Source of the DNA: Parabacteroides sp. PH5-46
GTDB taxonomy: Bacteria; Bacteroidota; Bacteroidia; Bacteroidales; Tannerellaceae
Assembly (NCBI RefSeq): GCF_029892785.1
Contig: NZ_JARXXA010000007.1
Location: forward strand, 1-64,000
Direction: 5' to 3'
DNA length: 64,000 nt
Part shown: positions 4,585 to 20,197 of the stretch, piece by piece
Numbering within the stretch: the stretch's first letter is position 1
Layout: the number at the start of each line of letters is the position of its first letter
Notes under the pieces: generated by a model
Seen by the model: only the letters and a program-made list of their open reading frames with translations
Databases searched by the model: none
What the model was told of the DNA's origin: nothing
Position numbers and translations under genes: made by a program

Positions 4585-4620
4585 CCAAATATTCAATCCT
4601 TAGAAATAAAACCCATTAAG

Positions 4621-5499: not shown

Positions 5500-5590
5500 G
5501 AGTTTTCTATCTACATATAGACAGGTAATTTATGTCAAAATCAGACATTAGAAACGAAAATAAATACAGTTTTTCGCTTATATTTATGTG

Positions 5591-5598: not shown

Positions 5599-5614
5599 CC
5601 TGAAACTATTAACA

Positions 5615-6130
5615 ATGAATCATATGAATTTTTTGGAACTTATTAGAAAACGTAGAGCAATACGACAATTCGATTCTAAAGAAGTGGAGCAGGAAAAACT
5701 GGATTATATATTGGAATGTGCCAGATTTGCCCCTTCTGCTGTAAATATTCAACCTTGGCTTTTTTTCATCGTGAAAAGTGAAGAGAAAAAGAAAGATTTG
5801 CAAAAAGCATATCCCAATAGGTGGATAGATTCAGCTCCTTTTTATATTGTGGCTTGTGCTGATTCAGAACAGTCATGGAAACGCTCATATGATAGTAAAA
5901 ACCATGTGGACGTTGATCTTTCTATTGCCATTGAGCATATTTGTCTTGCAGCAGCGGAACAAGGACTTGGAACTTGTTGGGTGTGTAACTTCGATCCAAT
6001 TATTTGCTCTCAGGCATTGGAGTTATCAGAACATATACATCCTGTGGCAATAATACCCATAGGTTATCACAGTTCAGTAGTAAAGCCCCAAGTTCGGAAG
6101 CCAATTAAGGAAATCGTAAAAACAATATGA
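5615..6130 (+). CDS. Nitroreductase family protein
   Basis: A 171-residue FMN-dependent nitroreductase-fold enzyme. The N-terminal RKRRAIRQFDSKEV segment (FMN phosphate binding), ARFAPSAVNIQPWLFFIV and the C-terminal AAAEQGLGTCWVCNF are typical of the family. These enzymes use NAD(P)H to reduce nitro groups, quinones or enones. The ATG at 5624 is an alternative start. It lies between the two PhzF genes and is probably controlled with them. Confidence 0.88.
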   Translation: MNHMNFLELIRKRRAIRQFDSKEVEQEKLDYILECARFAPSAVNIQPWLFFIVKSEEKKKDLQKAYPNRWIDSAPFYIVACADSEQSWKRSYDSKNHVDVDLSIAIEHICLAAAEQGLGTCWVCNFDPIICSQALELSEHIHPVAIIPIGYHSSVVKPQVRKPIKEIVKTI

Positions 6131-6161
6131 TTAAAAAAGTGAGGGAAAGAAAGTGTAAATT

Positions 6162-7019
6162 CTAATCTTTCTTTTCTTCACTTTTATTCTGAACCAATCT
6201 AAAACTACCCGGACTAAGCCCTCTATACTTTTTGAATAGCTTATACAAATGGCTTTCATCAGTAAATCCAAATTCATTAGCTATCTCATTAATACGCATA
6301 TCACTATACAATAGTCTGCTCTCAATCATGCTTAGTTTATAGTTGATTATATATTGTTGCAGTAATACGCCTGTATGTTTCTTAAAATAACGACCAAGAT
6401 ACAATTCAGAAATACTAAAGGAAGATGAAATATTTTTAGCAATTAGCTTTTCGGGATTATGGATGTTAGAGTGGATGTAGTGTATGATTTCCATTATTCT
6501 TGAATCAGAATAATTATTTATTGTTTCAGGTAAAGAGAGCGATAAATTTCGGGCAGCAATTATTATCAATGTGTTTACTAATTGTCGAATAAATTCTTTA
6601 TCATATAAATCTGTTTTTTCATTCTCGTTAAGGATTGCTTCAACAATAGGTCTTATCAGCTGAATATCTGTTTTGTTTTTCAAGATACATCCACAATACT
6701 TGTCTGCATTGTTAAGGATAAATTTCAATCTTTTAGCACTCTCACTTGAAAGTGCATCAGAATTGATATGGTTTTCATGGAAGCGAACAATGAAAAATTC
6801 CGTCTTGGTCTCTACATCAAAAGCATGATGGTCTTTAGGTGTGATTAAAAAGAAATCCCCTTTACGATACCCGAACACATTACCATTTATGTTTTGTGTC
6901 CCTGAGCCTGAAAGAATATAAAGTAGTTCAAAGAAAGAGTGTCCATGTACATCCAATGGACATTGGTTTGTATTTAAGTAAACGATCTCGTAAGGTTGAA
7001 GCAGATTAACTTTTTTCAT
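6162..7019 (-). CDS. AraC family transcriptional regulator
   Basis: A 285-residue regulator: residues about 10-130 form a cupin-like sensor (HGHSFFELLYILSGSG), and the C-terminal 100 residues are the HTH_18 domain with two helix-turn-helices (NEIANEFGFTDESHLYKLFK and the closing GLSPGSFR). The ATG at 7019 is preferred over the upstream TTG, since the sequence upstream (CAAAAATA at 7022-7029, a minus-strand TATTTTTG) looks like a -7 box. It is divergent from the second phzF gene and convergent with the nitroreductase gene. It is the probable activator of the flanking cluster. Confidence 0.88.
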   Translation of the reverse strand: MKKVNLLQPYEIVYLNTNQCPLDVHGHSFFELLYILSGSGTQNINGNVFGYRKGDFFLITPKDHHAFDVETKTEFFIVRFHENHINSDALSSESAKRLKFILNNADKYCGCILKNKTDIQLIRPIVEAILNENEKTDLYDKEFIRQLVNTLIIIAARNLSLSLPETINNYSDSRIMEIIHYIHSNIHNPEKLIAKNISSSFSISELYLGRYFKKHTGVLLQQYIINYKLSMIESRLLYSDMRINEIANEFGFTDESHLYKLFKKYRGLSPGSFRLVQNKSEEKKD

Positions 7020-7076
7020 AGCACAAAAATACACTATTTCAACAAATAAATACAAGTTGAATATCTGTTTTATGTA

Positions 7077-7084
7077 TATCTTTG
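7077..7084 (+). promoter_or_regulatory. -7 box (TATCTTTG) of second phzF-like gene
   Basis: A TAnnTTTG match 17 bp before the ATG at 7102. The open frame begins earlier (7057), but that would place the start before the promoter. A short ATAAATACAAG tract upstream again resembles the regions ahead of the other two promoters of the cluster. Confidence 0.6.
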
Positions 7085-7101
7085 CCTTAAAAATAGTTAT
7101 T

Positions 7102-7890
7102 ATGGATAAATATAAGCTATATCAAGTCGATGCATTTACAGAAAAGTTATTTGGAGGAAATCCTGCTGCGGTTTGTCCGCTGAATAAATGGTTAGATGAT
7201 AGCCTGTTGCAAAAAATAGCAATGGAAAACAATCTTGCCGAAACAGCATTTTACGTTAAGCAGGATAACCAATACGAAATTCGTTGGTTTACTCCTAATG
7301 TCGAAGTCGATTTATGCGGACATGCTACATTGGCGGCAGCATACGTCCTGTTTTATCATGAAAACCATGCAGAAAACACTATCGTATTTCATTCTCCCAG
7401 AAGTGGTGAATTGAGGGTAAGTAAACAAGCGGATAGATTGATGCTTGATTTTCCTGTTGATGAATTTTGTGAAATACCGATATCAAGTGAAATAACAAGC
7501 TGTTTTGACAGAATGCCTATTGAAGTATATAAAGGCAAGACAGACTATATGTTGGTGTACGAAGAAGAAATAGACATCACCAATATTAAACCACAATTTG
7601 AATTTATTGCGAAGCTAAAAGCAAGAGGCGTTATCATTACAGCAAAAGGTAGAAGTGTCGATTTTGTTTCAAGATTTTTCGCTCCCCAATCAGGAATAAT
7701 CGAAGATCCCGTAACAGGGTCAGCCCACACGACTTTAACTCCATACTGGGCAGGAAAACTAAATAAAACAGAATTGTCCGCCTTGCAATTATCTGAACGT
7801 AAGGGATATCTATATTGTGTACTCATAGGAAAAAGGGTAGAAATAAGTGGACAGGCTAAATTATATTTGAAAGGTGAAATTTTTATTTAG
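7102..7890 (+). CDS. PhzF family phenazine biosynthesis-like isomerase
   Basis: A 262-residue PhzF-fold protein of the more common short subtype: YQVDAFTEKLFGGNPAAVCP at the N-terminus, the catalytic Glu in NNLAETAFYV, VDLCGHATLAAAYVLF (about residues 72-87) and EDPVTGSAHTTL in the C-terminal half. It is distinct from the gene at 4621-5499, so the two are not a recent duplication. The substrate is unknown. Confidence 0.88.
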   Translation: MDKYKLYQVDAFTEKLFGGNPAAVCPLNKWLDDSLLQKIAMENNLAETAFYVKQDNQYEIRWFTPNVEVDLCGHATLAAAYVLFYHENHAENTIVFHSPRSGELRVSKQADRLMLDFPVDEFCEIPISSEITSCFDRMPIEVYKGKTDYMLVYEEEIDITNIKPQFEFIAKLKARGVIITAKGRSVDFVSRFFAPQSGIIEDPVTGSAHTTLTPYWAGKLNKTELSALQLSERKGYLYCVLIGKRVEISGQAKLYLKGEIFI

Positions 7891-7960
7891 GAAAATTTCA
7901 CTAATCATTCAGCATAAAACAGGACTTCGGTCTGATTATTAATATTCACTTTAAAATTTT

Positions 7961-8600
7961 ATGCTCATGAATGAAATCTTAAAAACGAGGTTTTTCAGTC
8001 TATTGTCTGAATCCTCACAAGTCACAAACGAAGAAATGCAAAGTGCCTATGGAAACTTCATCCAACATGTAAAGGCGGTTAGTTCCGAAAATGATTACGC
8101 TGCAATCTATCGGAATTTGAGTAATACTCGTATTGAGTTATCAGCCTTAGAACTCCTAAATCGGTACGAGCAGGGGGGAAAATGCCCTGAAATTTGCCTA
8201 TCTACAAAAGGCTTTAGCCATTGTCAATGCTGAATTAGAACTACTTAACCTCAAAATTCAACATCCGAAACAGTTTTATCAATCCAACCAACCAGCGTTT
8301 GAATCCGAACTATATATAATCCCTAAGTCAAAAGACTTCGGGATTGTTGCTTTAGCGGAAATCGTAATCACCCTTTTCTTTTCAAAGAAAGTATTCCAAC
8401 GGAACGGAAAACCCGCACACCTGAACCAAATTGCAGATGCTTTTGAAAAGGTTTTTAATTGTAGTTTTGGCAGTATCTATGACCAACAGAAAAAGGTATT
8501 CGACCGTAAACCATTCAATCGGACAAAAGCCCTCGACTTCCTGCGTAACCTCATAATCCGAAAGGATAAAGAGGACAGAAATAAACAAGATGAAAAATAA
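7961..8600 (+). pseudogene. Frameshifted RteC-like regulator gene
   Basis: The first frame (from ATG at 7961) encodes ILKTRFFSLLSESSQVTNEE and continues to RYEQGG, then runs into an early stop. After a run of six G at 8172-8177 a different frame stays open to 8600, giving NALKFAYLQKALAIVNAEL, then PKSKDFGIVALAEIVITLFF and a C-terminal RKPFNRTKALDFLRNLIIRK. That tail resembles the RteC C-terminal domain seen at 38161-38991. Removing one G restores a protein of about 212 residues. RteC homologues regulate excision of Bacteroides conjugative elements. The break may be a mutation in the homopolymer or a sequencing error. Confidence 0.65.
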
Positions 8601-8648
8601 CCGTTTTGTAATATATTAAATACAAGTATGTTACAAAAAACTTTCGGG

Positions 8649-8666
8649 GGAGTAGTTAACTACTCC
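8649..8666. terminator. Terminator-like palindrome after rteC-like gene
   Basis: A perfect 18-bp palindrome GGAGTAGTTAACTACTCC followed by TCTTTTTCT. It probably ends the rteC-like transcript. Confidence 0.6.
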
Positions 8667-8695
8667 TCTTTTTCTGTTTCTCCATTCTGCCGAGC

Positions 8696-8750
8696 TTTGC
8701 TTCGTCAATGCATTGGATATAAGAAGTATTAATCTGTAAAACGAAGCAAA
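8696..8750 (+). promoter_or_regulatory. Conserved inverted-repeat leader before HTH gene
   Basis: Arms TTTGCTTCGT (8696-8705) and ACGAAGCAAA (8741-8750) are perfect 10-bp complements and end two bases before the ATG. The same leader, including CGTCAATGCATTGGA and GTATTAAT, precedes the paralogue at 37533-37865 on the minus strand (about 37866-37927). It could be an operator or an RNA hairpin hiding the ribosome binding site. Confidence 0.55.
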
Positions 8751-8752
8751 TC

Positions 8753-9109
8753 ATGTATATCAATAATGAAGATTTTGAAATGTGGATGCAAAAGCTATCC
8801 AAGAAATTGAACGATATAGGTCAAGACCTGAAATCGCTCATCAACACCAAAGAGGTATTTGACGAAGACGAGAAACTGCTCGATAATCAAGATTTAGCCT
8901 TTCTCCTAAAAGTATCTTACCGAACATTACAGCGGTATCGTTCCAGTAAAAAACTACCTTTCTTTATGATTGCCCACAAAACCTATTACCGCACTTCTGA
9001 TGTTCGGGAGTTTGTGCGAGCGCACATGGATTTTCAAACCTATCAGGATTTTGAAAAGAAGCACCCAAAGCCCAAAGACAAGGATAAAAAAGACGAAAAA
9101 GAGGAATGA
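8753..9109 (+). CDS. Helix-turn-helix protein of mobile elements
   Basis: A 118-residue protein with an N-terminal helical region (residues 1-45), a helix-turn-helix core (DNQDLAFLLKVSYRTLQRYR, then AHKTYYRTSDVREFVRAHMD) and a very charged Lys-rich tail. Its paralogue is at 37533-37865 in E1 and a deleted copy is at 98-211 in E3, so all three elements carried it. The likely role is an accessory DNA-binding factor for excision or mobilization. Its ATG directly follows the conserved inverted-repeat leader. Confidence 0.75.
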   Translation: MYINNEDFEMWMQKLSKKLNDIGQDLKSLINTKEVFDEDEKLLDNQDLAFLLKVSYRTLQRYRSSKKLPFFMIAHKTYYRTSDVREFVRAHMDFQTYQDFEKKHPKPKDKDKKDEKEE

Positions 9110-9305
9110 TTCTACTTTCTATGATTTAAGCAGAATAGAGCAAATGAAAGAGGCTTGCTTTTGGTTTACGCCTCCTGTAAATAGCTCCGCATTTAGCAGA
9201 AACAACTTCGTCTCTCGGCTCTGCCTGTTTCGCTAAATTAAGCAAGAGGGAACTGGACTTCGTCCTGTTCTTCCTCTTGCCCTGCGGGTCAAAGCCTTCG
9301 GCTTT

Positions 9306-9370
9306 AGCGGTTTAACATAAACCGCTATAATTAGTCCAATAATTAGCCTTTTGTGTTTATCGCTAATTAT
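9306..9370. other. Candidate oriT hairpins before bfmA
   Basis: The stretch 9110-9412 has no gene. It holds two inverted repeats: AGCGGTTT/AAACCGCT (9306-9313 and 9319-9326) and ATAATTAGC/GCTAATTAT (9339-9347 and 9362-9370, 14-base loop), directly upstream of the mobilization genes. This is where an origin of transfer is expected in small mobilizable elements. The part before 9300 is shared with E3 (212-345). No nick site can be assigned from the sequence alone. Confidence 0.4.
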
Positions 9371-9412
9371 CAGACTTTTAATGACATGAAATTCCATTAA
9401 AAAGTAATTATC

Positions 9413-9901
9413 ATGAAAGATGAAGCCCCAAAGATTATATATACTACTGTTTCCATAGACAAGGAAACAGGACGTTTAGTAGAAAAGATATGTAAACGCT
9501 ATTCGTTGAAAAAGAGCGAAGTTGTAAAGCTGGCATTCCTGTATCTGGATAAAGCACATATTAACCCTGCGGATGCTCCCGAATCGGTAAAATCAGAACT
9601 TGCCAAGATTAATAAACGGCAGGATGATATTATCCGCTTCATTCGCCACTACGAAGAAGAACAACTCAACCCGATGATACGAACAAGCCATTCAATAGCC
9701 GTTAAGTTCGATACGGCTGTCGGAATCCTGACGGAAAAAGTAAATTTAGAAATAAACACCTCAAAAGATAACCTTGTCAATGTACTGAAAAAGTTGGACG
9801 AACATTTCGGTAAAATAGCAGTAGTAATAAATAACCAGTCCGCAAGCCTTGATAAACTATCTGCTACTATTGACAATCATTCCAGGACGATTAATAGCTA
9901 A
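9413..9901 (+). CDS. bfmA: BfmA/BtgA family mobilization protein, C-terminally shortened
   Basis: A 162-residue relaxosome accessory protein. The N-terminus (KIIYTTVSIDKETGRLVEKI, then YSLKKSEVVKLAF) has the look of a ribbon-helix-helix DNA-binding domain, and the rest is helical. It precedes the DUF5712 relaxase-like gene, the usual arrangement in Bacteroides mobilizable elements. The TAA at 9899-9901 is followed in the same frame by 45 further sense codons (TQVQQRNNQKLLKLISLYSE to SLRAEINDLINE) ending at 10039. The ancestral protein was therefore probably about 208 residues. Whether the short form works is unknown. Confidence 0.8.
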   Translation: MKDEAPKIIYTTVSIDKETGRLVEKICKRYSLKKSEVVKLAFLYLDKAHINPADAPESVKSELAKINKRQDDIIRFIRHYEEEQLNPMIRTSHSIAVKFDTAVGILTEKVNLEINTSKDNLVNVLKKLDEHFGKIAVVINNQSASLDKLSATIDNHSRTINS

Positions 9902-10042
9902 ACCCAGGTACAACAAAGGAATAATCAGAAGCTATTGAAATTAATCTCCCTGTATTCGGAGCTTGCCACTTGTGGAGTAATGGACGGCAAGCGTAAAGAG
10001 AGCCTAAGAGCCGAGATTAACGACTTGATAAACGAGTAACCC

Positions 10043-10987
10043 ATGAATATAGATTTCCCGCCACCGTCCAAAGGCACATACAACAATGCAGGCAGTAGCA
10101 GAAAGCTATGCAACTATTTAGAACATGAGGACTTAGAGCGCATGGAGCAGGGAATCTATACCGAAGGATTCTTCAACCTGACAGATGACAATATCTACAA
10201 ATCACAGGTTATAAAAGATATAGACAGCAATATCGGGCAACTTATGAAAACGGATGCCAAGTTTTATGCTATCCATGTCAGCCCATCGGAAAAAGAACTT
10301 CGGGCAATGGGTAACACCGAACAAGAACAAACCGAAGCCATGAAACGGTATATCCGTGAAGTGGTTATTCCTGAATATGCCAAGAACTTCAATAAAGGAC
10401 TATCGGCAGATGATATAAAGTTTTACGGCAAGATACATTTCAGCCGGGACAGGTCAAGTAACGAACTAAATATGCACTGTCATTTGATTGTCAGCCGTAA
10501 AGACCAATCCAACAAAAAGAAACTATCTCCACTTACCAATCACAAGAATACCACGAAAGGAACGGTTAAGGGTGGTTTTGACAGGAAGAACCTGTTCCAA
10601 CAAGCAGAGCAAGGATTTGATAGGCTATTCGGCTACCAACGGCAATTAACCGAATCCTTTGAATACTACAATACCATGAAGAACGGAAGTATCTCTGACC
10701 AACTTAATATGCAGGAACGCCAGATTTTCGATGAAAGAAAAAATACAGATATGCAGACTGGCTTGTATGCAGATAAGCAAGGCGAACCGAATGAAAACAA
10801 GGTTGCATATAAACAAGACGACAACCTTTCAAACGATATTGAAAATAAGCAAAGTTTCAATCTCCCTGATTTGGGTTTATCCTCTGCATTAGGTTTGCTT
10901 ACTCCTGAACCGAATAATACAGAAGAACAACAAATTCCCGTGAAAAGAAAAAAGAAGAAACCAAATAAGAGAATAAGAAGAGGATAA
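10043..10987 (+). CDS. DUF5712 mobilization (relaxase-like) protein
   Basis: A 314-residue protein of the DUF5712 / BfmC type. A relaxase-like metal-binding motif MHCHLIVSRKD lies at about residues 152-162, after KIHFSRDRSSNELN. An N-terminal GTYNNAGSSRKLCNYLEHED segment is family-typical, and the C-terminus is highly basic (KRKKKKPNKRIRRG). It likely nicks and carries the element DNA during mobilization with BfmA. It starts three bases after the stop of the extended bfmA frame. Confidence 0.8.
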   Translation: MNIDFPPPSKGTYNNAGSSRKLCNYLEHEDLERMEQGIYTEGFFNLTDDNIYKSQVIKDIDSNIGQLMKTDAKFYAIHVSPSEKELRAMGNTEQEQTEAMKRYIREVVIPEYAKNFNKGLSADDIKFYGKIHFSRDRSSNELNMHCHLIVSRKDQSNKKKLSPLTNHKNTTKGTVKGGFDRKNLFQQAEQGFDRLFGYQRQLTESFEYYNTMKNGSISDQLNMQERQIFDERKNTDMQTGLYADKQGEPNENKVAYKQDDNLSNDIENKQSFNLPDLGLSSALGLLTPEPNNTEEQQIPVKRKKKKPNKRIRRG

Positions 10988-10997
10988 AAAACTATAA

Positions 10998-11414
10998 ATG
11001 AATACTATGTGCGAATATGAAGAAATACGGGAAGCAATAGATAGCTACCTGATGGAGCAGTTCAGATACCGCCGTTCCTTTGTCCGGCTTACACCTGATA
11101 ATATCGTAACCACCCGAAGAAATAGCCGGATAGACCTCTATTTGCGTATCAGGAGAATAGAAAGCCTATTTCCGCCCAATTGCCTTATTATAGCCCGAAT
11201 CGGCTTTCAAAAAGAACGCATAGGGCATGGCTCTCATTTCGTCAGGTTTTTAGCAGAAATAGCCATAAAATATGGTTTTAAGTATATTGGAATTGAATCA
11301 ACCAATGAGAAAAGCAGTTCATTTGCCAAGAAATTGGGTTTCTACTCAATAGACGGTTTAAACTATGCAATATCAGTGAAGAATCTCCTATCATATTTTC
11401 AAGATAAGAGATAG
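10998..11414 (+). CDS. GNAT-like N-acetyltransferase domain protein
   Basis: A 138-residue protein with a GNAT-like acetyl-CoA-binding region at residues about 72-115 (ERIGHGSHFVRFLAEIAIKY), followed by an SSFAKKLGFY motif typical of the fold. It is 10 bp downstream of the DUF5712 gene, so probably in the same transcript. Small GNAT proteins like this are common passengers beside mobilization genes in Bacteroidales; the substrate is unknown. Confidence 0.6.
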   Translation: MNTMCEYEEIREAIDSYLMEQFRYRRSFVRLTPDNIVTTRRNSRIDLYLRIRRIESLFPPNCLIIARIGFQKERIGHGSHFVRFLAEIAIKYGFKYIGIESTNEKSSSFAKKLGFYSIDGLNYAISVKNLLSYFQDKR

Positions 11415-11476
11415 TATAATTCTTTATTTATTTGATTTACAAAAGTACATTCCGGTAATAGAACGCCAACACCAAG

Positions 11477-11536
11477 CCGCAAGCGGTTTTTAGAAATTTC
11501 TTCCTTTTCATGCTGAAAAGAGTAAATTTCTAAAAA
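11477..11536. other. Long nested hairpin in intergenic region 11415-11746
   Basis: This 330-bp gap has no gene. A short GC hairpin CCGCAAGCGG (11477-11486) runs directly into TTTTT. It is followed by a large stem-loop with outer arms 11487-11499 and 11524-11536 (TTTTTAGAAATTT / AAATTTCTAAAAA) and inner arms CTTTTCA/TGAAAAG around a TGC loop. It may terminate the mobilization transcript. A similarly built hairpin is at 37443-37507 in E1. Confidence 0.5.
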
Positions 11537-11746
11537 GTGTTGTCTTATCTATTCCCTGCATGAATGAGATGTATATCAATTAAAAAAAGAAAAAAATATG
11601 TGTAGGGGATTAAGTATTTACGCCAGACACAGCCACTTTCAGCCATTGCACCCCATTTCGTAAAACCTGCCTGAAATCTACTTTCCTTTGCCTGAAAATC
11701 ATTGCAATGAGAATAATTTCAGTAATCAGTAAAAACAGATTTTAAT

Positions 11747-12031
11747 ATGGATATAGTAGCAATCGAAAGCAAAACGTTCGAACAGATGAGAGGACGTTTT
11801 GAGGATTTTGCCCGACAGATAAAAATCCTTTGTGGGGAGAATCAGGATAAAGAACAATGGTTAGGCAACGATGATGTTTGTAGCCTTCTGCAAATATCGC
11901 CGAGAACATTACAGTCATACAGGGATAACGGTATTCTGCCTTATTCGCATATTGGGCGTAAATGTTATTACAAGGTATCGGATATTGAGAATTTAATCAG
12001 TCAGTCACAAAGAAGCAAAGAGCAAAAATGA
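11747..12031 (+). CDS. Small helix-turn-helix protein
   Basis: A 94-residue protein of the same family as 458-748 and 45820-46104: N-terminus MDIVAIESKTFEQMRGRFED, helix-turn-helix at about residues 43-80 (CSLLQISPRTLQSYRDNGIL, then GRKCYYKVSDIENLIS). Its TGA stop overlaps the next ATG (ATGA). It is the first gene of a three-gene operon that ends in a second helix-turn-helix gene; the role is inferred to be control of excision. Confidence 0.78.
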   Translation: MDIVAIESKTFEQMRGRFEDFARQIKILCGENQDKEQWLGNDDVCSLLQISPRTLQSYRDNGILPYSHIGRKCYYKVSDIENLISQSQRSKEQK

Positions 12032-12306
12032 AAACAGAAAATGTCAATTTAGATAGGTTGGTTGGTAATTGGGAGAGCATAAATTTGAATCCGACAGTTA
12101 TTATATACCGAAGCGGAGAAAGCTATTTACTTAGTGTTATCCACATGAACGAAACAAGCAAACAGGCAAGCCCTGCTACCTACGAGATACAGAAAGATGA
12201 AGACGGCTTCTTTATCAACTATAACCTGAAACGGACGGCTATCAGCTATGATATAAAACTGGGTATATTAACTATCTCCGCATTGGGCGACTATATACGG
12301 AACTAA
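12028..12306 (+). CDS. DUF3876 domain protein
   Basis: A 92-residue small protein with an alternating beta-strand pattern (LVGNWESINLNPTVIIYRSG, then YLLSVIH and a closing KLGILTISALGDYIR). It fits the DUF3876 family found next to helix-turn-helix genes on Bacteroidales mobile elements. It is translationally coupled to the preceding gene through an ATGA overlap. The function is unknown. Confidence 0.65.
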   Translation: MKTENVNLDRLVGNWESINLNPTVIIYRSGESYLLSVIHMNETSKQASPATYEIQKDEDGFFINYNLKRTAISYDIKLGILTISALGDYIRN

Positions 12307-12319
12307 AAAAGATACAACA

Positions 12320-12601
12320 ATGGAAATATTAGATAAGAAATCAACGGAAATAACTTCTTTCTTCACGGGATTGGATGAGTTACTGGATACTATCGGGCAA
12401 GCCCTTAAAAGCCGAACTCCACACCTGAATGGAGAAAAACTCCTGTCAAACCGTGATATCTGTCGGATGCTTCACGTTTCGTTCCGGACGTTACAGGATT
12501 GGCGGGATACTGGCAAAATCCCATTTATTCAGATTAAGGGAAAGATTTTGTATAAGGAATCGGAGATACTGAATTTGGTAGAAAATAATATCATTAAGTA
12601 A
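12320..12601 (+). CDS. Small helix-turn-helix protein
   Basis: A 93-residue protein related to 756-1049 and 46111-46392. The helix-turn-helix is at about residues 42-85 (NRDICRMLHVSFRTLQDWRD, then GKILYKESEILNLVE). It is the third gene of the operon, 13 bp after DUF3876. It probably works as a pair with 11747-12031, as the paired genes do in E1 and E3. Confidence 0.78.
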   Translation: MEILDKKSTEITSFFTGLDELLDTIGQALKSRTPHLNGEKLLSNRDICRMLHVSFRTLQDWRDTGKIPFIQIKGKILYKESEILNLVENNIIK

Positions 12602-12627
12602 ACAAAATCTATACTAATAAAGCAATT

Positions 12628-12663
12628 GAAAAGACCTGTAAGAAGTAGCTTGTAGGTCTTTTC
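12628..12663. terminator. Bidirectional terminator
   Basis: A 10-bp perfect inverted repeat GAAAAGACCT / AGGTCTTTTC with partly pairing inner bases, between convergent transcription units (12601 and 12669), with T-rich flanks on both strands. Confidence 0.7.
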
Positions 12664-12668
12664 TGTAA

Positions 12669-13748
12669 CTATTTGAGAAGACTATTGTAGACTTTTCTTG
12701 CATTATTCCAGAATTCACTCGCTTTTTCTCGTTTAAATGAAGTAGTTGGTGCATAATATACTTTTTTATTACCTTTAGTACCTTCTATATTTCCTGTATT
12801 AATAACCGATACTTCAAATATTTTAGGACTACCTTTGAATTCTGCTTTTATAATTAGTAAAGCAGAAGTTCTAATGCTTTTGAATTCGTAGGTCATTGCA
12901 GTAAAGACACAACCGCTATTTTCTGCTTGCCGAACAAATGAATGTTCCCTTAAATTTCGACCATCCAAAACCGCTTGGCTAATTCCACCTAAGTCCTTTT
13001 CACTTACTTCCTCTAAGGTCTCTTCCTCTCCCTCTTCTTCTATCTCTAGAACATTTCCTCTTCTCTTAAATGTTAGCTGTTTGATATCTAACAAAGCCCA
13101 TTCTTTTTTGTCAAAACCCTCTTTTGCTAATCTATCAAAAAAAGTAATAACATCTTGCTCTTGTAGGTCATCGATTTTCAATGTCGCTATTTCAGCAGAT
13201 TTTGCTCCAATAACCATTTGCATGAGTTTTAGAACCTCTTTCCCGTCAGAAGAACTGGAACCATCAACTTCTACTTGCCAAGAACCATCAGGTAAATTAA
13301 AGAAAAAGAATTCTGTATTATATTTTTCGCCTTGTAAAAATTCAATTTTTCCCGACTTGTGTTTAGTATATTCAATTTCGCCTTTACAACATACTATTTC
13401 CTCGCTTCTTTTCTCTCTAGACAATGTCTTAAGTTGATAGCCTTTTGATTGCAATTGCCCATATTCTCTCAAACGATTATACAAAGATTCTAAATCAAAA
13501 TCCGTGTCTTTAGGCTTAATAGTAAAACCACTTAGAGATTGCTTATTTGATGTTTGGTACGAGGCTTCCCTTATTTCCTCTAAATCAGACAATTCGTATA
13601 ATAGGGATGAGAGTTCTTTTACTAAATCATCCTTACTGGCATTAGTTAAAATAAGACCTCTTGATTGAGCAAACTTATTGATAAAAGCTCTCGTTTGTGC
13701 ACTAAGAACTTCATAAATATCATATGTGGGAGGGTATTTTGTTATCAT
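12669..13748 (-). CDS. Unrecognised protein C of three-gene cassette (SAP-like N-terminus)
   Basis: A 359-residue protein with no family I can name. The ATG at 13748 overlaps the preceding stop (ATGA). The N-terminal stretch FAQSRGLILTNASKDDLVKE (about residues 26-45) has the helix-loop-helix spacing of a SAP-like nucleic-acid-binding motif. A mixed alpha/beta middle follows (FFFFNLPDGSWQVEVDG, MVIGAKSAEIATLKIDDL), then a long acidic segment (EIEEEGEEETLEEVSEKDL). A C-terminal beta-rich part follows (YEFKSIRTSALLIIKAEFKG). No transmembrane segment is seen. It is the last gene of a tightly overlapped operon with a nuclease-like protein; a defence role is inference only. Confidence 0.6.
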   Translation of the reverse strand: MITKYPPTYDIYEVLSAQTRAFINKFAQSRGLILTNASKDDLVKELSSLLYELSDLEEIREASYQTSNKQSLSGFTIKPKDTDFDLESLYNRLREYGQLQSKGYQLKTLSREKRSEEIVCCKGEIEYTKHKSGKIEFLQGEKYNTEFFFFNLPDGSWQVEVDGSSSSDGKEVLKLMQMVIGAKSAEIATLKIDDLQEQDVITFFDRLAKEGFDKKEWALLDIKQLTFKRRGNVLEIEEEGEEETLEEVSEKDLGGISQAVLDGRNLREHSFVRQAENSGCVFTAMTYEFKSIRTSALLIIKAEFKGSPKIFEVSVINTGNIEGTKGNKKVYYAPTTSFKREKASEFWNNARKVYNSLLK

Positions 13749-14656
13749 TTTATATTCGTTATAAATGCAGGCAATTCTCGACAAGAATCCATATCTTTTA
13801 TTTCAAAGTCAATATTATCTTCTTTATACAGTTTTATTATATCCGGTTCTATTTTACGGAATTCTTCATCTCTGTGATATTTATATATAATCAATTTCCG
13901 TGATTCATCTATAAATAAAAAGGAAAGCAAAACTGATTTTAATAGCCTAAATGACTGCGTGTTTAACTCTCCAAAGTAGAAGACTATATTCAATTCAGCT
14001 CCTGAATTATCTTTAGATTGTCCCAGTATGAATTTTGAAAAAATATAGTCTAAAGATAAAATAGACGTCCTTTGAACTGCTCTGTTATTTATAAATGAGG
14101 AAGGATAATAAAACTTAAATTCATTAAAATCTTTAATCACCGAATGTATTGAGCAAAGTTTAGATATTAAGTCATTATCAATTATATATATCTTATTAAA
14201 AATAGAACTTTTTAAAGGTTTGGTAGATACTGTAATATTTTCAACCATTTCTCGAAAACGAGGACGAAAAGATTTATATTCATCAGTGTTACTAAACCAA
14301 ATGAATATTATACCAATTTTCAAATCTGATATTTCTTGAAATATAGGATGTCTATCAAAGAGTTCTTTAGAGCCTCTCAATGTTGATATCTTTAAATTCA
14401 ATCTATCAACCCAAGCTTGTAATGCTGATTGACTAAGACTAGTTGTCAAATAACATTTAGCTTCAATTATCAGACTTTCTGGAATATCTTTAGCCGGATT
14501 TTTTATACTGTACAAACAGTCAATCCCATACTCCACGTTGTCAGTACCCTCAACATCCATACCACTGTCGCCAATTTTTTCCCATGAAAGCAGATTTAAT
14601 AAGGCTATAGCCTGTTGAGTCCAAAGTTCTCCCTTATATTGTGAATCTTCACCCAT
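13745..14656 (-). CDS. Putative PD-(D/E)XK nuclease-like protein B of three-gene cassette
   Basis: A 303-residue protein. The N-terminal 95 residues carry a pattern like a PD-(D/E)XK nuclease: a helix with a possible Glu (KGELWTQQAIALLNL), YGIDCLY with Asp46, then SLIIEAKCY with Glu65 and Lys67, then a helix QSALQAWVDRLNLKI. The remainder is an unrecognised alpha/beta region (IGIIFIWFSNTDEYKSFRPR; ELNIVFYFGELNTQSFRLLK). The start overlaps the upstream gene by eight bases and the stop overlaps the next by four, so the three proteins are made together. The nuclease call rests on motif spacing alone. Confidence 0.6.
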   Translation of the reverse strand: MGEDSQYKGELWTQQAIALLNLLSWEKIGDSGMDVEGTDNVEYGIDCLYSIKNPAKDIPESLIIEAKCYLTTSLSQSALQAWVDRLNLKISTLRGSKELFDRHPIFQEISDLKIGIIFIWFSNTDEYKSFRPRFREMVENITVSTKPLKSSIFNKIYIIDNDLISKLCSIHSVIKDFNEFKFYYPSSFINNRAVQRTSILSLDYIFSKFILGQSKDNSGAELNIVFYFGELNTQSFRLLKSVLLSFLFIDESRKLIIYKYHRDEEFRKIEPDIIKLYKEDNIDFEIKDMDSCRELPAFITNIK

Positions 14657-15329
14657 GTATATTGTCTTTTATGTTTTCTAATATAGGATAAAAATCATCT
14701 TCTTCACATTTTATACTTAGTGTATTTGAAGAGATAATTAAATAATAATCTTTCTGGCTAACGATATTGATTGAAACTTTCAATACGTCATTTGCATAAC
14801 TATTGATAAGCTCTTTACCTATAACTTGATTTGATATTTTTGCTATGTATTTTCCCAGAACTCCGTCACTATATTTAAAGTTTTTAATAATAATTTCTTC
14901 AATATTAAATGATTGATTATTACATGAGATCTTTCTCATAATATCAACAGGAGTAAAGCCAAAATCATTATAAGAGAGAGGGGTTTCAAGAGTACTTCTT
15001 AACGCACTTTTTATCTTATTATGATTTGCATTTGCTCCAAAAGAGTACAATAGGTTTTTATTAAAATCCATACAGAATGGAATTTTCTCATAAATAGGTA
15101 TTTCAATTTTTTTTAAATCATTTATATCTGGATTAAAACCTAGAATAGACGTAATAGTCCGTTTTATTAAAGTAGAATATAAAATGCCTTCATTGATTTC
15201 AAGATCAGAATAACCAATACCATTGTCTTCTGTGTATTCTATATCTTTTAAGATATGAAATATGTCTTCCATAAGAGAATTGTCTTCTATAGAAAAACGA
15301 CTGAACATTATGTTGGTTCTCTTTTTCAT
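14649..15329 (-). CDS. Unrecognised protein A of three-gene cassette
   Basis: A 226-residue protein with no family I recognise. The open frame extends upstream, but the ATG at 15329 is chosen: it has AGGAG five bases before it and a -7 box TATCTTTG at 15347-15354 (minus strand). A conserved-looking central block IPFCMDFNKNLLYSFG (about residues 84-99) is followed by a helix and a beta-rich C-terminus ending in EDDFYPILENIKDN. It is the first gene of the operon. The sequence is visibly AT-rich compared with the neighbouring mobilization genes. Confidence 0.6.
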   Translation of the reverse strand: MKKRTNIMFSRFSIEDNSLMEDIFHILKDIEYTEDNGIGYSDLEINEGILYSTLIKRTITSILGFNPDINDLKKIEIPIYEKIPFCMDFNKNLLYSFGANANHNKIKSALRSTLETPLSYNDFGFTPVDIMRKISCNNQSFNIEEIIIKNFKYSDGVLGKYIAKISNQVIGKELINSYANDVLKVSINIVSQKDYYLIISSNTLSIKCEEDDFYPILENIKDNIHG

Positions 15330-15346
15330 AACTCCTTGATTTTCTA

Positions 15347-15354
15347 CAAAGATA
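15347..15354 (-). promoter_or_regulatory. -7 box of three-gene cassette
   Basis: On the minus strand TATCTTTG, a TAnnTTTG match, 17 bp before the ATG at 15329. It supports transcription of the cassette from its own promoter. Confidence 0.6.
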
Positions 15355-15550
15355 CAATCTTTATAGAAATATAAATAATTATTCCTAAAAAAATAGACAT
15401 ATATAGTCTTGACTTTCAGGCAAAACATTATATCTAAGACTCCTTATTGTCGATTTCTCCATATTGATTTCCTGCAAATAGCATTTTGAAGTAAAATAAA
15501 GGTACTAAATTTAAGAAAAAGCACCTTTCAACCCTTTTAATATAGGAATA

Positions 15551-16780
15551 TTACAAGGATGTAGAAACGTTTCCAACTTTCTGCATATCGTTCAGAATAC
15601 TTTGATCAAGTACTCGTGCATATCGTTTCGTCATACTGATATTGGAATGACCAAGCATTTTCGCAACATTCTCGATGCTTACACCGTTGGCTAGGCACAC
15701 TGACGTAGCATAGCTATGGCGCGCTGTGTGTGTCGAAATTTCCTTCTTAATTCCGCACAAATCGGCGATTTCCTTCAAATAACTATTCATCTTTTGATTA
15801 CAGGGTACAGGCAACAATACATTCCGTTTTTCACAAAGAGGACAGCCTTTATACTTCTCTATAATTGCTAAAGGTACATCCAACAGCGGGATATTACACA
15901 TGTTTTTTGTCTTTTGCCGAGCCTTCCGAATCCAATAATTTCCCTCTCGGTCGTTTACTATATGCTCTGATGTCAGTTGCTTTACATCTATGAATGAGAG
16001 TCCAGTAAAAGCACAAAATATGAAAATATCACGAACCAAATCAATACGAGGCAACTCAAACTTTTTGTTTATAACTGTTTGCAGTTCATCCCAAGTAAGA
16101 AACTCCCGATTTACTTCTTTCTCATGAAATTTTATTCCCATAAACGGGTCTTTGCTTATCCACTCATTGGCAAGAGATAGATTAGTAATCTTTTTAAGGC
16201 ACTTCATGTAGCGGATAACGGTATTTTGAGCACATTCTTTTTCAGTTTTCAAGTAGAAATCGAAAGCCCTAATGAATTCTCCGTTCACATCTTTAAGCGG
16301 AATATCTTCTTTGTCGAACTTTATTTTTATAAGTTCAACTAAATAACGTTTGCAACTTTCGTAACGGCGTACAGTTATTAAAGCGAAGTCTTTACCTACT
16401 AATTGCCGGCATTGGTCGTTATGCTCTTGAATGGTAGCTATAAGGGTTCTTGGTGCTTCCTTCTCTTCCAATCCAAAGAACTTATCCCGGAGAATAATTG
16501 CTGTAATGGGTAAACCTTCCTGCCTCAAATCGGAATGAATATTATACAACTTGATTCGAGCTTCTTCAATAAACTTGTTTAAGTCGTTTGACTTGCGGTC
16601 TTTGCCACGAGAACATTCTTTCGCCTGATTCCAGAGGGAAGGACTAATACTTTTACGAATGTTCGTTTCAGCGCGGACATTGTTTACTGTAATTCTCATA
16701 CATACAGAGGCTTCACCATTCTTCAATAGTTTTGTTTTCTTTAAGAAAAACAAAACACTAAATGAATTTCTTTCCATCAT
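15551..16780 (-). CDS. Tyrosine site-specific integrase of E2
   Basis: A 409-residue CTnDOT-like recombinase, clearly different from the E1 and E3 enzymes. The architecture is arm-binding (1-95), SAM-like (about 110-210) and catalytic (about 230-400). Catalytic residues: Lys in RQKTKNMCNIPLL, HTARH with H351 and R354, GHSNIS with H378, and Tyr387 in KRYARVL; FTGLSFIDV lies where the first Arg normally sits. It lies 240 bp left of att copy 2, as the other two integrases do relative to their att copies. Codon 2 (ATG at 16777) is an alternative start. Confidence 0.93.
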   Translation of the reverse strand: MMERNSFSVLFFLKKTKLLKNGEASVCMRITVNNVRAETNIRKSISPSLWNQAKECSRGKDRKSNDLNKFIEEARIKLYNIHSDLRQEGLPITAIILRDKFFGLEEKEAPRTLIATIQEHNDQCRQLVGKDFALITVRRYESCKRYLVELIKIKFDKEDIPLKDVNGEFIRAFDFYLKTEKECAQNTVIRYMKCLKKITNLSLANEWISKDPFMGIKFHEKEVNREFLTWDELQTVINKKFELPRIDLVRDIFIFCAFTGLSFIDVKQLTSEHIVNDREGNYWIRKARQKTKNMCNIPLLDVPLAIIEKYKGCPLCEKRNVLLPVPCNQKMNSYLKEIADLCGIKKEISTHTARHSYATSVCLANGVSIENVAKMLGHSNISMTKRYARVLDQSILNDMQKVGNVSTSL

Positions 16781-16967
16781 TTTTCTACTTGTTTTAAGTG
16801 ATACAAAATTATGAAAAAGTGGAGAGAGTTTCGCTACGCAACAGGCTGACAGTCAATGCCAATTAAGGTCAAAAGGTGGAGATAAATATCTCCTGAGTTT
16901 GCTCCACCTTTTGCTCCACCAGAGTAGGTCGAAATTTGCTGTTTTTTGCGTAGTGGGTAAAAATGAA

Positions 16968-17000
16968 AAACTCCCGATATTCGTTGAATATCAGGAGTTT
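16968..17000. terminator. Hairpin between integrase and att (E2)
   Basis: Arms AAACTCCCGATATTC (16968-16982) and GAATATCAGGAGTTT (16986-17000) pair over 15 bases with one mismatch and a 3-base loop. The position matches the hairpins at 2518-2549 and 48578-48609, though the sequence differs. The rest of the gap 16781-17177 holds only the att repeat. Confidence 0.55.
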
Positions 17001-17019
17001 ACTTCTTTTTGCTTTCTCT

Positions 17020-17036
17020 AAAAGTGGTGCCACCAG
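17020..17036. repeat. att-like direct repeat, copy 2
   Basis: AAAAGTGGTGCCACCAG matches 17 bases at the tRNA-Phe 3' end (48630-48646) and at 2570-2586. The match stops at GAATCG, where this copy reads AAAGAG. It marks the E2/E1 junction. Confidence 0.75.
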
Positions 17037-17177
17037 AAAGAGAACTGTTATTGTATCTCTATTGATAGTCAACCTTTTATGTTTTCTTAAATTTGGAATC
17101 CCACACGATTTAGCACACGATTATTTTTCATCGTTCTGCTCGCTATGAGCATGGTGCTTGTACAAAGGTACAAATTA

Positions 17178-18443
17178 TTATAAATTTAGAAGCCATTTCC
17201 ATGCAGGAATAACTTCAATTGTGTTACCATCTATTTCCAACATCCGTTCGGTATCGCGGGTGATAATCATCAACTTTTTACACTCTAACACACTCGGAAG
17301 TTTCAATAATGCTTCAACCTCTCTATCAAATGTACCATCGCTATTGTCAAGGTCATAACACGCTTGAATAGCAATAGCTTCATCAGGGATATAAAAATCT
17401 ACTTCAACTCCTTTATTGTAGAAAAAAACCGCATCATTGCGTCCATATTTACGCAACAGGTTAATAGCTATCAAATTTTCCAATAACGAAGTATTTCCAT
17501 CCAATAAGAAAAGATTCAGAATACCATTGTCAGTAAAATAATACTTTGGATTCGTTTCCTTTTCAACCAGCTTGCCTGCTATATTTTGTAGCGAAGAAAT
17601 CAGCCAAGCATCTTTTGCATATTCTATATAGTTGATTATAGTCGTTTTGCCTACTTTCGCTCCGGTCGATGACACGATGTTGGTTACTCTAGAAAATGAC
17701 ACAGGCTGTTTTACGCTTTCGGCCAGTTTTTTGAACATGATACGCAAGGCAAACGTGTTGTCTACTGAATGACGGGTAGCAATATCTCCCAAATATATTT
17801 TTTGATAAACACTTGTCAAATAATCTCGTTTGGCAGTGAATTCTGCACTCTCTGGGAATCCTCCGAAATAAAAATAATCATTGAATTTTCTTAGAACTTC
17901 AGCCTTCCCTTCCGTTGAAAGCAAAGATTCTTCATTGAACTTGATTTCATTTGCAGTCAGAAATTCCTTGAAATTATATGGAAAAACATCTATGGGAATG
18001 TAACGTCCCCCAAGAATGGTCTGGATATCCTGACTTAACATTTTGGCATTACTTCCGGTAATATAAACCCGATGTTTGGTATCAGCCATACGGCGGGCGA
18101 ATTTTTCCCAACCGATAATGTTCTGTATCTCATCAAGAAAAAGTATCGGCTTCTTTCCATACATCTCTAAATGGACTTCTAAAAGCAAATTCAAATCTTC
18201 CAAAGACATACCAACCAGACGTTCATCCTCAAAATTAACATATAGCATCTCATCCCACTGTACGCCTTGCGCAAGTAACTGCTGCATTCGTTGATAGAGC
18301 AAGAAAGACTTTCCAGCTCTTCGAATACCCACAAAAACGTAATTACCAAATTCTTCAAAGATGAAATCTCTTGGAATTACCTTGTATTTAGGCACTTCTA
18401 TCTGATTGTCTGCAATAACTGTTTTCAGTATGTTTTTATCCAT
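17178..18443 (-). CDS. AAA-family ATPase with DUF4143 domain
   Basis: A 421-residue protein of the AAA_14/DUF4143 family. Walker A is FVGIRRAGKSFLLY (about residues 36-49), Walker B is PILFLDEIQNI (about 94-104), and a sensor-like YITGSNAKMLS follows. The C-terminal DUF4143 part (about 200-380) has GVEVDFYIPDEAIAIQACY, a degenerate nuclease-like strand pattern with Gln-Ala-Cys where catalytic residues would be. The cellular role of this family is not settled. The promoter upstream is flanked by two palindromes (18453-18501), suggesting tight control. Confidence 0.88.
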   Translation of the reverse strand: MDKNILKTVIADNQIEVPKYKVIPRDFIFEEFGNYVFVGIRRAGKSFLLYQRMQQLLAQGVQWDEMLYVNFEDERLVGMSLEDLNLLLEVHLEMYGKKPILFLDEIQNIIGWEKFARRMADTKHRVYITGSNAKMLSQDIQTILGGRYIPIDVFPYNFKEFLTANEIKFNEESLLSTEGKAEVLRKFNDYFYFGGFPESAEFTAKRDYLTSVYQKIYLGDIATRHSVDNTFALRIMFKKLAESVKQPVSFSRVTNIVSSTGAKVGKTTIINYIEYAKDAWLISSLQNIAGKLVEKETNPKYYFTDNGILNLFLLDGNTSLLENLIAINLLRKYGRNDAVFFYNKGVEVDFYIPDEAIAIQACYDLDNSDGTFDREVEALLKLPSVLECKKLMIITRDTERMLEIDGNTIEVIPAWKWLLNL

Positions 18444-18452
18444 AATTATTCC

Positions 18453-18501
18453 GTCTTGTCAACAGGACAAATATAGTACATTTTCGTCTTGCAAACAAGA
18501 C
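18453..18501 (-). promoter_or_regulatory. Promoter flanked by two operator palindromes
   Basis: GTCTTGTCAACAGGAC (18453-18468) and GTCTTGCAAACAAGAC (18486-18501) share the pattern GTCTTG-N4-CAAGAC; the second is perfect and the first has one mismatch. They lie 33 bp apart, about three helical turns. A minus-strand -7 box TATATTTG (18468-18475) lies directly between them. Start of the ATPase gene is at 18443. The binding protein is not obvious nearby. Confidence 0.65.
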
Positions 18502-18526
18502 GATTTGATGGTTTTTTTCTTCTAAT

Positions 18527-18820
18527 TTAAAGTTGGTATGTCTTAAAAAGCAATTTCATTCTACAGAGAAGGGCTTTACTTTGGAACTTATCGCAATAGT
18601 CCATCAACAAATCTTTGTTCAAATCGTCATTCAGATAATCCTCGTCTAAGCGTAATTCTTCCAACTCCTGTCCACTATAAACGGATAAAGATACAGCAAA
18701 TCAAGCAATGCTTTTTCGGGTGTAGCAAACTGTATGGTACGACTGTCTGCCATTGGTTTCAACTCGTATCCGAACATCAGGTTATCTTTGACCCTTAAAT
18801 TCCAGAAAAGTCTTTTTCTA
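18527..18820 (-). pseudogene. AbiEi-like antitoxin remnant
   Basis: Read on the minus strand, the sequence gives RLFWNLRVKDNLMFGYELKP, then MADSRTIQFATPEKALLDLL, which resembles the C-terminal half of AbiEi-type antitoxins. After LLYLYPF the frame changes and continues as SGQELEELRLDEDYLNDDLN to CRMKLLFKTYQL and a stop at 18527-18529. In-frame stops lie just upstream, so the N-terminal half is gone and the rest is frameshifted. No AbiEii nucleotidyltransferase is next to it. It explains most of the gap between 18444 and 18949. Confidence 0.6.
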
Positions 18821-18922
18821 TTTTGTTTCTATTATGCTGCAAGTATAGTGCGTTTTGGAAATAAAATAAAATTCTTGTGATAAACAAACCTCTTCACCAA
18901 AGTCTTTCAAATTAGAAAAATG

Positions 18923-18930
18923 TAACTTTG
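18923..18930 (+). promoter_or_regulatory. -7 box (TAACTTTG)
   Basis: A TAnnTTTG match 19 bp before the ATG at 18950. Confidence 0.55.
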
Positions 18931-18949
18931 CAGAATAAGAATTATTATC

Positions 18950-20197
18950 ATGAATACTATCTCCGCACCAATACTTGATGGACTTATTACTAAGGCTCAA
19001 TCTTGCCCTGATTTATTGAGTCAGACGGATAAGGAAGTTTTGTTATGTATATTAGAGAAGATGCAATGTGTTGCTATTTGTGGAAATGACGAACGCAGAG
19101 AGCTTTGGCTTACCACTGATCATGGCTCTATCGAGGATTTTGGCGATTACGATGATTATTTGGAAAATGAGATAGTGGAAAACAGAGATGACTTCGAAAA
19201 GATATGGAAAGAAGAGTATCCTGATCTAATTAAATGGTATCTCTTTTCTGTTACTCACTATAACGGGGAGTATTTCTTCTTTGTTGACAATAGGCTCACT
19301 CTGCATATAAAAAAGGAAGAACCTTACTCTACTGAATCACTCAACACCCAGCTTATTTCATGGCTCGAACAAACTGTTGATAAGTGTCTTGACTGGCTCA
19401 AAAAAGATACAGCCGGATATAATGAATATACCAATCAGCATCTCCCATATACAAAACGTACAGGGCGCATCCTCCGCCAACAATATTGGGATATTGACCC
19501 AGAAGAAAAAGAGTGGATGTTGAAAGGACTAACTAAAGATGATATTGATACGCTAAAAGCAATAGTAGAGTTATCAGAAGGTGATGACATGCTTATTACA
19601 TCTGATAAAATGACCTCCGGCTTCTTTTTTAATTGTTGCAAGCTGGGATATGACGCGAATGGTTATTCGTACGATGCAAATCTATCCTTGCCTGATTTAT
19701 ATCGTAAATTTGCTGATGGAAGAGATTTTGTGCTTACTGAACTTGATATTAACTCCCCAAAAGCTTTCAAAGAATGGTTCGATAAACGCGAATGGCAATT
19801 CGGCCATCCATGGGAAGTTTGCCGAGGTGGAAATTCTACGCATATTTCATTGTATGTAAATAAGAGGGGAAATGGTTGGCAGTTATCTCTTGCTGGGAAA
19901 AGCAGTAGCCGAGTTGCTGAAACCGTTCGGTTTGCCATAGCTCTGTATAAAAACAATATTCCGTTTAAACTATGGGATGCTAAAGAGATTCTGGCAATGG
20001 TGTCCGGAACTGATTATATCGGAATTGTGCCGGAAGGGGTTACGCCAGTTTATTGTCAGTCCTATTTCCCCCAAGAAGATCATATTATTGATTTTATGAA
20101 TTTGCCAGTGGAGAATAGAAATAGGGTAATTGAGGAGGCTTATTGGTCTTCAGAGAACGTGGTCAGGTTAGCTGAAAATTGTGAGTCAAATAAGTAG
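18950..20197 (+). CDS. Uncharacterised cytosolic protein
   Basis: A 415-residue soluble acidic protein with no signal peptide or membrane segment and no family I can name. It is rich in Trp, Tyr and Asp, with notable stretches YFFFVDNRLTLHIKKEE, HPWEVCRGGNSTHISLYV and GWQLSLAGKSSSRVAETVRF. It reads opposite to the flanking ATPase and Wadjet operons and has its own promoter. An association with the neighbouring defence genes is only positional. Confidence 0.65.
   Translation: MNTISAPILDGLITKAQSCPDLLSQTDKEVLLCILEKMQCVAICGNDERRELWLTTDHGSIEDFGDYDDYLENEIVENRDDFEKIWKEEYPDLIKWYLFSVTHYNGEYFFFVDNRLTLHIKKEEPYSTESLNTQLISWLEQTVDKCLDWLKKDTAGYNEYTNQHLPYTKRTGRILRQQYWDIDPEEKEWMLKGLTKDDIDTLKAIVELSEGDDMLITSDKMTSGFFFNCCKLGYDANGYSYDANLSLPDLYRKFADGRDFVLTELDINSPKAFKEWFDKREWQFGHPWEVCRGGNSTHISLYVNKRGNGWQLSLAGKSSSRVAETVRFAIALYKNNIPFKLWDAKEILAMVSGTDYIGIVPEGVTPVYCQSYFPQEDHIIDFMNLPVENRNRVIEEAYWSSENVVRLAENCESNK

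Follow-up and report, generated by a model that had tools for sequence, protein, structure and literature searches.

A conserved three-gene cassette of Parabacteroides sp. PH5-46 encoding a predicted PD-(D/E)XK nuclease and a predicted DNA clamp

The stretch of DNA analyzed here (the window) comprises 64,000 nucleotides of Parabacteroides sp. PH5-46 (NCBI RefSeq assembly GCF_029892785.1, contig NZ_JARXXA010000007.1, positions 1 to 64,000 of the forward strand). It carries a cassette of three overlapping genes, designated A, B and C, whose features are listed in Table 1. The three genes form a real and conserved module, present in 14 distinct loci with the window included; protein B is a predicted PD-(D/E)XK nuclease and protein C a predicted DNA-binding protein. 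In a first-pass annotation, made from the letters of the window, the genes had been described as leftward and overlapping by 8 and 4 bases, and both the coordinates and the overlaps were measured as claimed. The start of gene C was placed at an ATG; a longer frame with a TTG start reaches 13784, and relatives align from approximately the ATG. The annotation had also given the cassette a -7 box and an AGGAG site of its own. Both are present (TATCTTTG at 15354-15347 and AGGAG at 15336-15332, each preceding gene A). However, TANNTTTG alone occurs 99 times in the window against 81 expected, a mild enrichment (99 was reached in 5 of 100 shuffles), and because the motif is so common the box before A is compatible with a promoter but is weak evidence, not proof, of one.

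Table 1. Features of the three-gene cassette and of its carrier element in the window.
Feature	Position	Strand	Remarks
Gene A	14649..15329	minus	226 amino acids; matches unnamed PHROG family 5850 (phrog_5850, E 1.6e-5)
Gene B	13745..14656	minus	303 amino acids; predicted PD-(D/E)XK nuclease domain (residues ~1-140) and C-terminal alpha/beta domain (~160-292), RPB5-jaw-like
Gene C	12669..13748	minus	359 amino acids; helical N-terminus and predicted two-part RdgC/Iml3/CENP-N-like fold; unnamed PHROG family 6531
A/B overlap	14649..14656	minus	8 bases
B/C overlap	13745..13748	minus	4 bases
Predicted active site of B (Asp46, Glu65-x-Lys67)	14456..14521	minus	invariant in the alignment
Acidic loop of C	12993..13055	minus	residues ~232-252; model confidence low at 232-245; length varies among relatives
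Trio operon: TATCTTTG box, AGGAG ribosome-binding site	15332..15354	minus	upstream of A
Integrase-like gene beside the trio	15551..16780	minus	upstream of A, same strand; taken by eye for a tyrosine recombinase
Relaxase-like mobilisation gene of the carrier element	10043..10987	plus	read by eye

The first relative was obtained by tblastn with window B and C and was the phage-labelled record MT836957.1, in which the order A, B, C is the same as in the window; its trio was a 100% match to IMG/VR contig 2802429514 (locus L010) over the stretches compared. The B protein of L010 led to two haloarchaeal plasmids, of Natronorubrum daqingense and Halobacterium sp. DL1, on both of which three genes of similar sizes lie side by side; profiles built on ten bacterial sequences recovered all six haloarchaeal A, B and C genes (E 9e-36 to 1.7e-21). 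Genome contigs were scanned with an alignment of three B sequences; of the 149 pattern matches, eight were confirmed as new loci, in Bacteroidales UBA4893, Bacteroides stercorirosoris, a member of the Chitinophagaceae, two Mucilaginibacter, Pedobacter nyackensis, a member of the Saprospiraceae and a member of the Anaerolineales. B was flanked by A and C, in the order A-B-C, in all eight, using A and C profiles built without these loci. A search with C of the genomes around the Anaerolineales carrier matched 2 of 301, and one of those around Pedobacter 3 of 300 (known carriers counted); the two loci that were new (L028 and L031) both hold B and a partial A that ends at the edge of the DNA examined. 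The 14 loci are thus the window, L010, L014, L015 and L019-L026 (12 from the 15 sources searched) plus L028 and L031, and their hosts include Bacteroidota, Chloroflexota (both phyla taken from organism names) and haloarchaeal plasmids. Whether the three proteins have homologues that share a locus had been left by the first-pass annotation as a point to check; they do, in the same order in 12 loci and again in the two found via C.

An A/B overlap of 8 bases is shared by 9 of the 12 loci in which it was measured, haloarchaeal ones among them, which speaks for coupled translation of A and B and for a stoichiometric complex. The B/C junction is variable among loci, ranging from an overlap of 22 to a gap of 17 bases. 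Gene B was found in 1 of 60 relatives of the window genome (the window genome itself being the match), and the B profile matched 1 of 295 genomes of the order (window genome counted). The family phrog_6531 was found in 2 of 123 genomes of the family, namely the window genome and one with a two-gene form described below (G310), and in 1 of 296 genomes of the phylum, again with the window counted. A single-sequence search with C gave matches in 2 of 295 genomes of the order, one of them weak (G089; 29% across residues 65-160, in a frame of 690 residues) and set aside as likely due to chance. No plasmid match was found by tblastn with window C, and no relative emerged when C as a single protein was scanned against viral contigs or B against genome contigs. 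So patchy and rare a distribution fits a horizontally moving module.

The spacing of a PD-(D/E)XK active site that had been noticed in B (Asp46, Glu65-x-Lys67) is present and, together with Asp34 (codon 14557-14555), invariant in 10 of 10 aligned B sequences, the window included; D46, E65 and K67 are also kept in both haloarchaeal B proteins. A structural model of B computed from ten aligned sequences (predicted local distance difference test, pLDDT, 85.9; predicted template modelling score, pTM, 0.85) shows a PD-(D/E)XK nuclease fold, the structural check for which the annotation had called. With the VIA aligner the N-terminal domain matched FokI (Z 8.1), AspBHI (8.0), Upx (7.9), SduA of Shedu (7.8), Can2 (7.6), Avs4 (6.4) and two Hachiman chains (6.4 and 6.3), with EndoMS and MspJI also among the rows; XisH-type structures were matched by B as well (2okf, Z 7.7; 2inb, Z 7.2). 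A single VIA Z score below 8 may reflect common structural arrangements. Since many PD-(D/E)XK nucleases agree and D46, E65 and K67 are invariant, the assignment of B is solid despite moderate Z scores (~6-8): on sequence motif and model, B carries a PD-(D/E)XK nuclease fold and would be expected to cleave.

The C-terminal domain of B (~160-292; window 13781-14179) resembled, with Z 9.0, a viral RNA polymerase chain (E) that was read as an RPB5-type subunit. EcoT38I aligned with this C-terminal domain and not with the N-terminal one (Z 6.0). Argonaute rows given by Foldseek were rejected (TM-score ~0.2, root mean square deviation, rmsd, above 12; VIA gave late and short C-terminal matches only), as were acetyl-CoA-carboxylase rows (rmsd above 10). 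In the PHROGs search the family phrog_7059 matched relatives of B (L010, E 1.9e-9; the Natronorubrum protein, E 3.5e-20) and did not match window B itself. Among ten relatives scanned with PADLOC, one match was obtained: a haloarchaeal B protein (L014:6001-7008) weakly matched the model Hp1 (E 3.1e-6).

Protein C was modelled from ten sequences (pLDDT 76.3, pTM 0.71). The model has four N-terminal helices followed by two halves rich in beta structure, with a long helix at the end of each; the acidic loop is disordered. The best VIA match was E. coli RdgC (2owl; Z 10.1 over 225 residues, 67-359, rmsd 5.2); below it came partial matches to KA1 domains, yeast and human inner-kinetochore chains L (Z 8.2 and 7.7) and Iml3 (7.5). 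From the chain letters, we take the chains L to be Iml3 and CENP-L. The best solved structure given by Foldseek was human CENP-N (E 2.2e-6, probability 1.00), and at E <= 0.001 seven of the eight chains were inner-kinetochore K or N. When viral models were searched, the top four all had probability 1.00: the first was labelled an exonuclease, the next three recombination-associated (RdgC) proteins of phages. In the PHROGs search window C was matched by phrog_6531 with E 8.2e-6. Residues ~73-181 of C (window 13206-13532) also matched the N-terminal part of RnlA, an endoribonuclease toxin of E. coli, with Z 7.4. RnlA acts against phage T4.

The first-pass annotation had described C by a SAP-like N-terminal motif and a long acidic stretch. 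The latter is present; most of the 14 C proteins aligned have it too, although it differs among them in length and in strength. The former survives in part: a helix, an extended loop and a helix are seen at residues 20-47 of the model, but no SAP domain was detected with Pfam at E up to 1. The description was accordingly amended to that of a predicted DNA-binding protein of the RdgC/Iml3/CENP-N type. In both haloarchaeal loci C carries at its C-terminus a further domain, of the helix-hairpin-helix type; in one its match passes the Pfam cut-off (E 1.9e-11), in the other it falls one bit short (E 1.3e-5).

In PMC11077077, RdgC, RexA of phage lambda, Iml3 and Chl4 are described as sharing one fold, RdgC and RexA as binding DNA non-specifically, and RexA as a phage-exclusion protein; the likeness between RdgC, Iml3 and Chl4 is also described in PMC4080450. 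RexA was not among the listed fold matches of C, from which absence does not exclude a family, and the link to it rests on the RdgC/Iml3 comparison given in PMC11077077. On the model, C appears to share the two-domain RdgC/RexA/Iml3-Chl4 fold, an assignment that is provisional because of the pLDDT of 76.3. The RdgC and kinetochore matches, the DNA binding described for such proteins and the haloarchaeal helix-hairpin-helix domain make a DNA-binding clamp, with its fold predicted, the best inference for C.

Protein A gave no significant match outside the trio families in the searches made, those of PHROGs and solved structures among them. Paralogy of A and C, suspected from the spacing of motifs, did not show in hhalign comparisons (probability 0.1-0.3), profile comparisons run as controls giving 0.1 (A and B) and 0.3 (C and the B' protein introduced below). 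A Chou-Fasman prediction for A was dropped because the method agreed with the models of B and C at only ~50% of residues.

Pairs of genes related to B and C, here called B' and C', were found on the Pantoea alfalfae plasmid p5_CQ10, on the Ewingella americana plasmid pB61b and, within the genus of the window, on contig C86 of genome G310. On both plasmids C' overlaps B' by 11 bases. In G310 (locus L011, positions 85-1520) a B' of 301 amino acids is followed after 5 bases by a C' frame that ends at 174 residues, so that C' is apparently truncated and the copy looks decayed; integrase-like genes adjoin it. B and B' were related by profile-profile comparison (probability 95.7, E 9e-9), and the ten-sequence B profile found both plasmid B' proteins (E 6.1e-12 and 2.7e-10) and did not find that of G310. 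B' keeps G-x-D and, by eye, reads S-x-K where B has E-x-K. The alignment of C and C' was weak (probability 35.8 with 14 sequences and 4.4 with 10), and phrog_6531 was matched by both window C and the C' of G310. Neither A nor C' was found by profile in the three B'-C' loci at E up to 10, and small trio profiles gave no match in L011, L016 and L017. The pairs may resemble GAPS4 of the Gamma-Mobile-Trio islands, a nuclease with one partner. GAPS4 consists of two genes only, from which the trio differs by its third gene A, present in 14 of 14 loci. A literature search for the two-gene relative by name returned nothing relevant, with coverage poor for subscription papers and preprints. The view that the cassette matches no named type stands in that none was matched, but the trio is not wholly without relatives.

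The neighbours of the trio were examined for defence genes. Ten neighbouring proteins, picked by eye from L022-L024, were scanned with PADLOC, and six matched: PDC-S26 in L022, PDC-M01A/PDC-M01B (Septu-like), AbiGi and an HNH nuclease family in L023, and AbiU in L024. Pfam gave HSDR_N for a neighbour in L022 and AIPR on the AbiU protein of L024. The trio thus resides in defence islands in three loci. That of Pedobacter nyackensis (L023:3273-11747) is compact and holds the Septu-like PDC-M01A/B, the trio, AbiGi and the HNH nuclease.

The description of the trio as cargo beside an integrase was borne out, by eye, by the integrase-like gene upstream of A. Integrase-like genes also lie near the trio in L010, L019 and L024, and an annotated integrase lies by L015. 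An integrase profile built from six sequences, the window gene at 15551-16780 among them, found no intact integrase in the flanks examined of L020-L023, L025 and L026, where divergent ones may be missed; two short integrase-like fragments were found in the L023 flank. Mobilisation-like and helix-turn-helix genes, read by eye, lie between 8753 and 12601 of the window on the strand opposite to the trio, and a gene similar to the relaxase-like one adjoins the trio of Bacteroides stercorirosoris (L020:6265-7233; by eye). A search for direct repeats in 4000-20000 gave no convincing element ends.

We consider it probable (about 0.6) that the trio is a mobile DNA-targeting defence module in which a clamp-guided nuclease would restrict invading DNA, as motif, models and neighbourhood suggest. 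The first-pass annotation had proposed an antiphage or anti-plasmid system, a proposal to which the defence neighbours in three loci lend support. In such a module B would be the effector, a PD-(D/E)XK endonuclease, and C a DNA clamp of the RdgC/RexA/Iml3-Chl4 fold that would bring B to DNA. Because of the conserved overlapping start, A is proposed to be a stoichiometric partner that probably co-folds with B or C and may sense or license. When DNA of a phage or plasmid enters, the complex of A, B and C would either bind and cut it or be triggered to cut DNA at large; the mode of defence against invading DNA would most likely be restriction-like or abortive.

Several observations weigh against this interpretation. 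None of A, B and C matched a PADLOC-DB 2.0.0 family at E up to 1; Pfam and NCBIfam gave nothing usable for the three window proteins, and sequence searches of solved structures gave weak unrelated chains or none. The neighbour count rests on ten proteins chosen by eye from three loci, and L025 and L026 sit, by eye, among ordinary chromosomal genes. With Foldseek alone B had no match at E 0.001 or better. Confidence in the model of C is moderate, the eight solved chains that Foldseek ranks best for it have low TM-scores (0.13-0.27 by model length), and one of these eight is an unrelated aromatase/cyclase (probability 0.54). Taken by itself, the first half of C gives further matches with Z 7 to 8.5, among them KA1 domains and RnlA. 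No RdgC family was among the Pfam matches of C from the window, L010, L011 and L014-L017, and no RdgC chain appeared in the profile search of solved structures with C at E up to 10, although no direct comparison of C with E. coli RdgC was made. DNA binding by RexA is described in PMC11077077 as uncorrelated with phage exclusion, so that an RdgC-type fold is by itself no proof of a defence role. Nor do these data account for gene A.

The three genes might instead form a toxin-antitoxin or addiction module, in which a nuclease toxin B would be held inactive by A and/or C and would stabilise the element, any effect on phages being a by-product. Overlapping genes, a mobile location and a nuclease effector would all suit such a module, as would the match of half of C to the RnlA toxin. 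Three-gene toxin modules are known. We nevertheless regard this explanation as rather unlikely, since three co-conserved genes shared by bacteria and archaea, one of them coding for a predicted DNA clamp, exceed what a minimal antitoxin needs, and the two-gene relatives, which retain B' and C', fit an effector-targeting pair equally well. A recombination or excision helper, in which an RdgC-like protein and a nuclease would process the DNA of the mobile element itself, is distinctly improbable. It would account for the RdgC fold of C, for the likeness of the B model to XisH, a factor controlling element excision, and for the integrase genes near the trio in the loci named above, but not for the flanks in which the profile found no intact integrase (subject to the same caveat on divergent ones), nor for the strand and position of the trio relative to mobilisation genes, which differ between the window and L020. 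That the trio is a housekeeping DNA-repair complex found on mobile elements by chance is most improbable: RdgC has a role in recombination and in restarting replication (PMC11077077), but the distribution is very patchy, with the window genome the sole match among 60 relatives (B) and 296 genomes of the phylum (phrog_6531), and defence genes accompany the trio in three loci.

Within the reading of the trio as a DNA-targeting defence module, A and C could together form a heterodimeric DNA clamp equivalent to Iml3-Chl4 (CENP-L/CENP-N) that would load the nuclease onto invading DNA. In that clamp A would be the short member and C the one bearing the helical head, and the trio would be a prokaryotic immune machine. 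Although quite unlikely, such an arrangement would mean that a eukaryotic centromere-binding complex has structural cousins in mobile prokaryotic defence modules.

No named defence system matched the trio, nuclease-based defence as such is already known, and a two-gene relative exists. The PD-(D/E)XK defence effectors Shedu SduA, Hachiman, Can2, the Avs4 nuclease domain and Upx have a nuclease fold like that predicted for B (Z ~6 to 8), from which B differs by its own C-terminal RPB5-jaw-like domain. None of them is known to be accompanied by partners like A and C. The predicted C shares the two-part fold of RdgC and the inner-kinetochore proteins; relative to RdgC, RexA and Iml3/Chl4 (CENP-L/CENP-N) it adds the helical N-terminus, the acidic loop and the constant neighbours A and B. 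An RdgC-histone operon of Halobacteria and Bacillus is described in PMC11390915, with a histone and a membrane protein as the partners; it is likewise a multi-gene arrangement with an RdgC-like protein and is also haloarchaeal, but is described there with no PD-(D/E)XK nuclease partner. A limited literature search revealed no case in which a PD-(D/E)XK nuclease is combined with an RdgC/RexA/CENP-N fold, which is weak evidence of novelty. If the trio is indeed a DNA-targeting defence module, it would be one common to Bacteroidota, Chloroflexota and haloarchaea that couples a nuclease with an RdgC/RexA/CENP-N-type clamp, and whether such clamps recognise foreign DNA would become directly testable. 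The RexA-type fold would gain a nuclease-coupled relative, which may help to explain phage exclusion by RexA-like proteins.

Elsewhere in the window, the integrase-like gene beside the trio is adjoined by a gene for an ATPase with AAA_14 and DUF4143 domains (17178-18443). Two overlapping leftward genes at 2766-4030 were read by eye as a split HipA kinase. Two more integrase-like genes lie at 1120-2334 and 47180-48397, and the proximity of the latter to a tRNA-Phe gene (48633-48706) suggests another integrated element.

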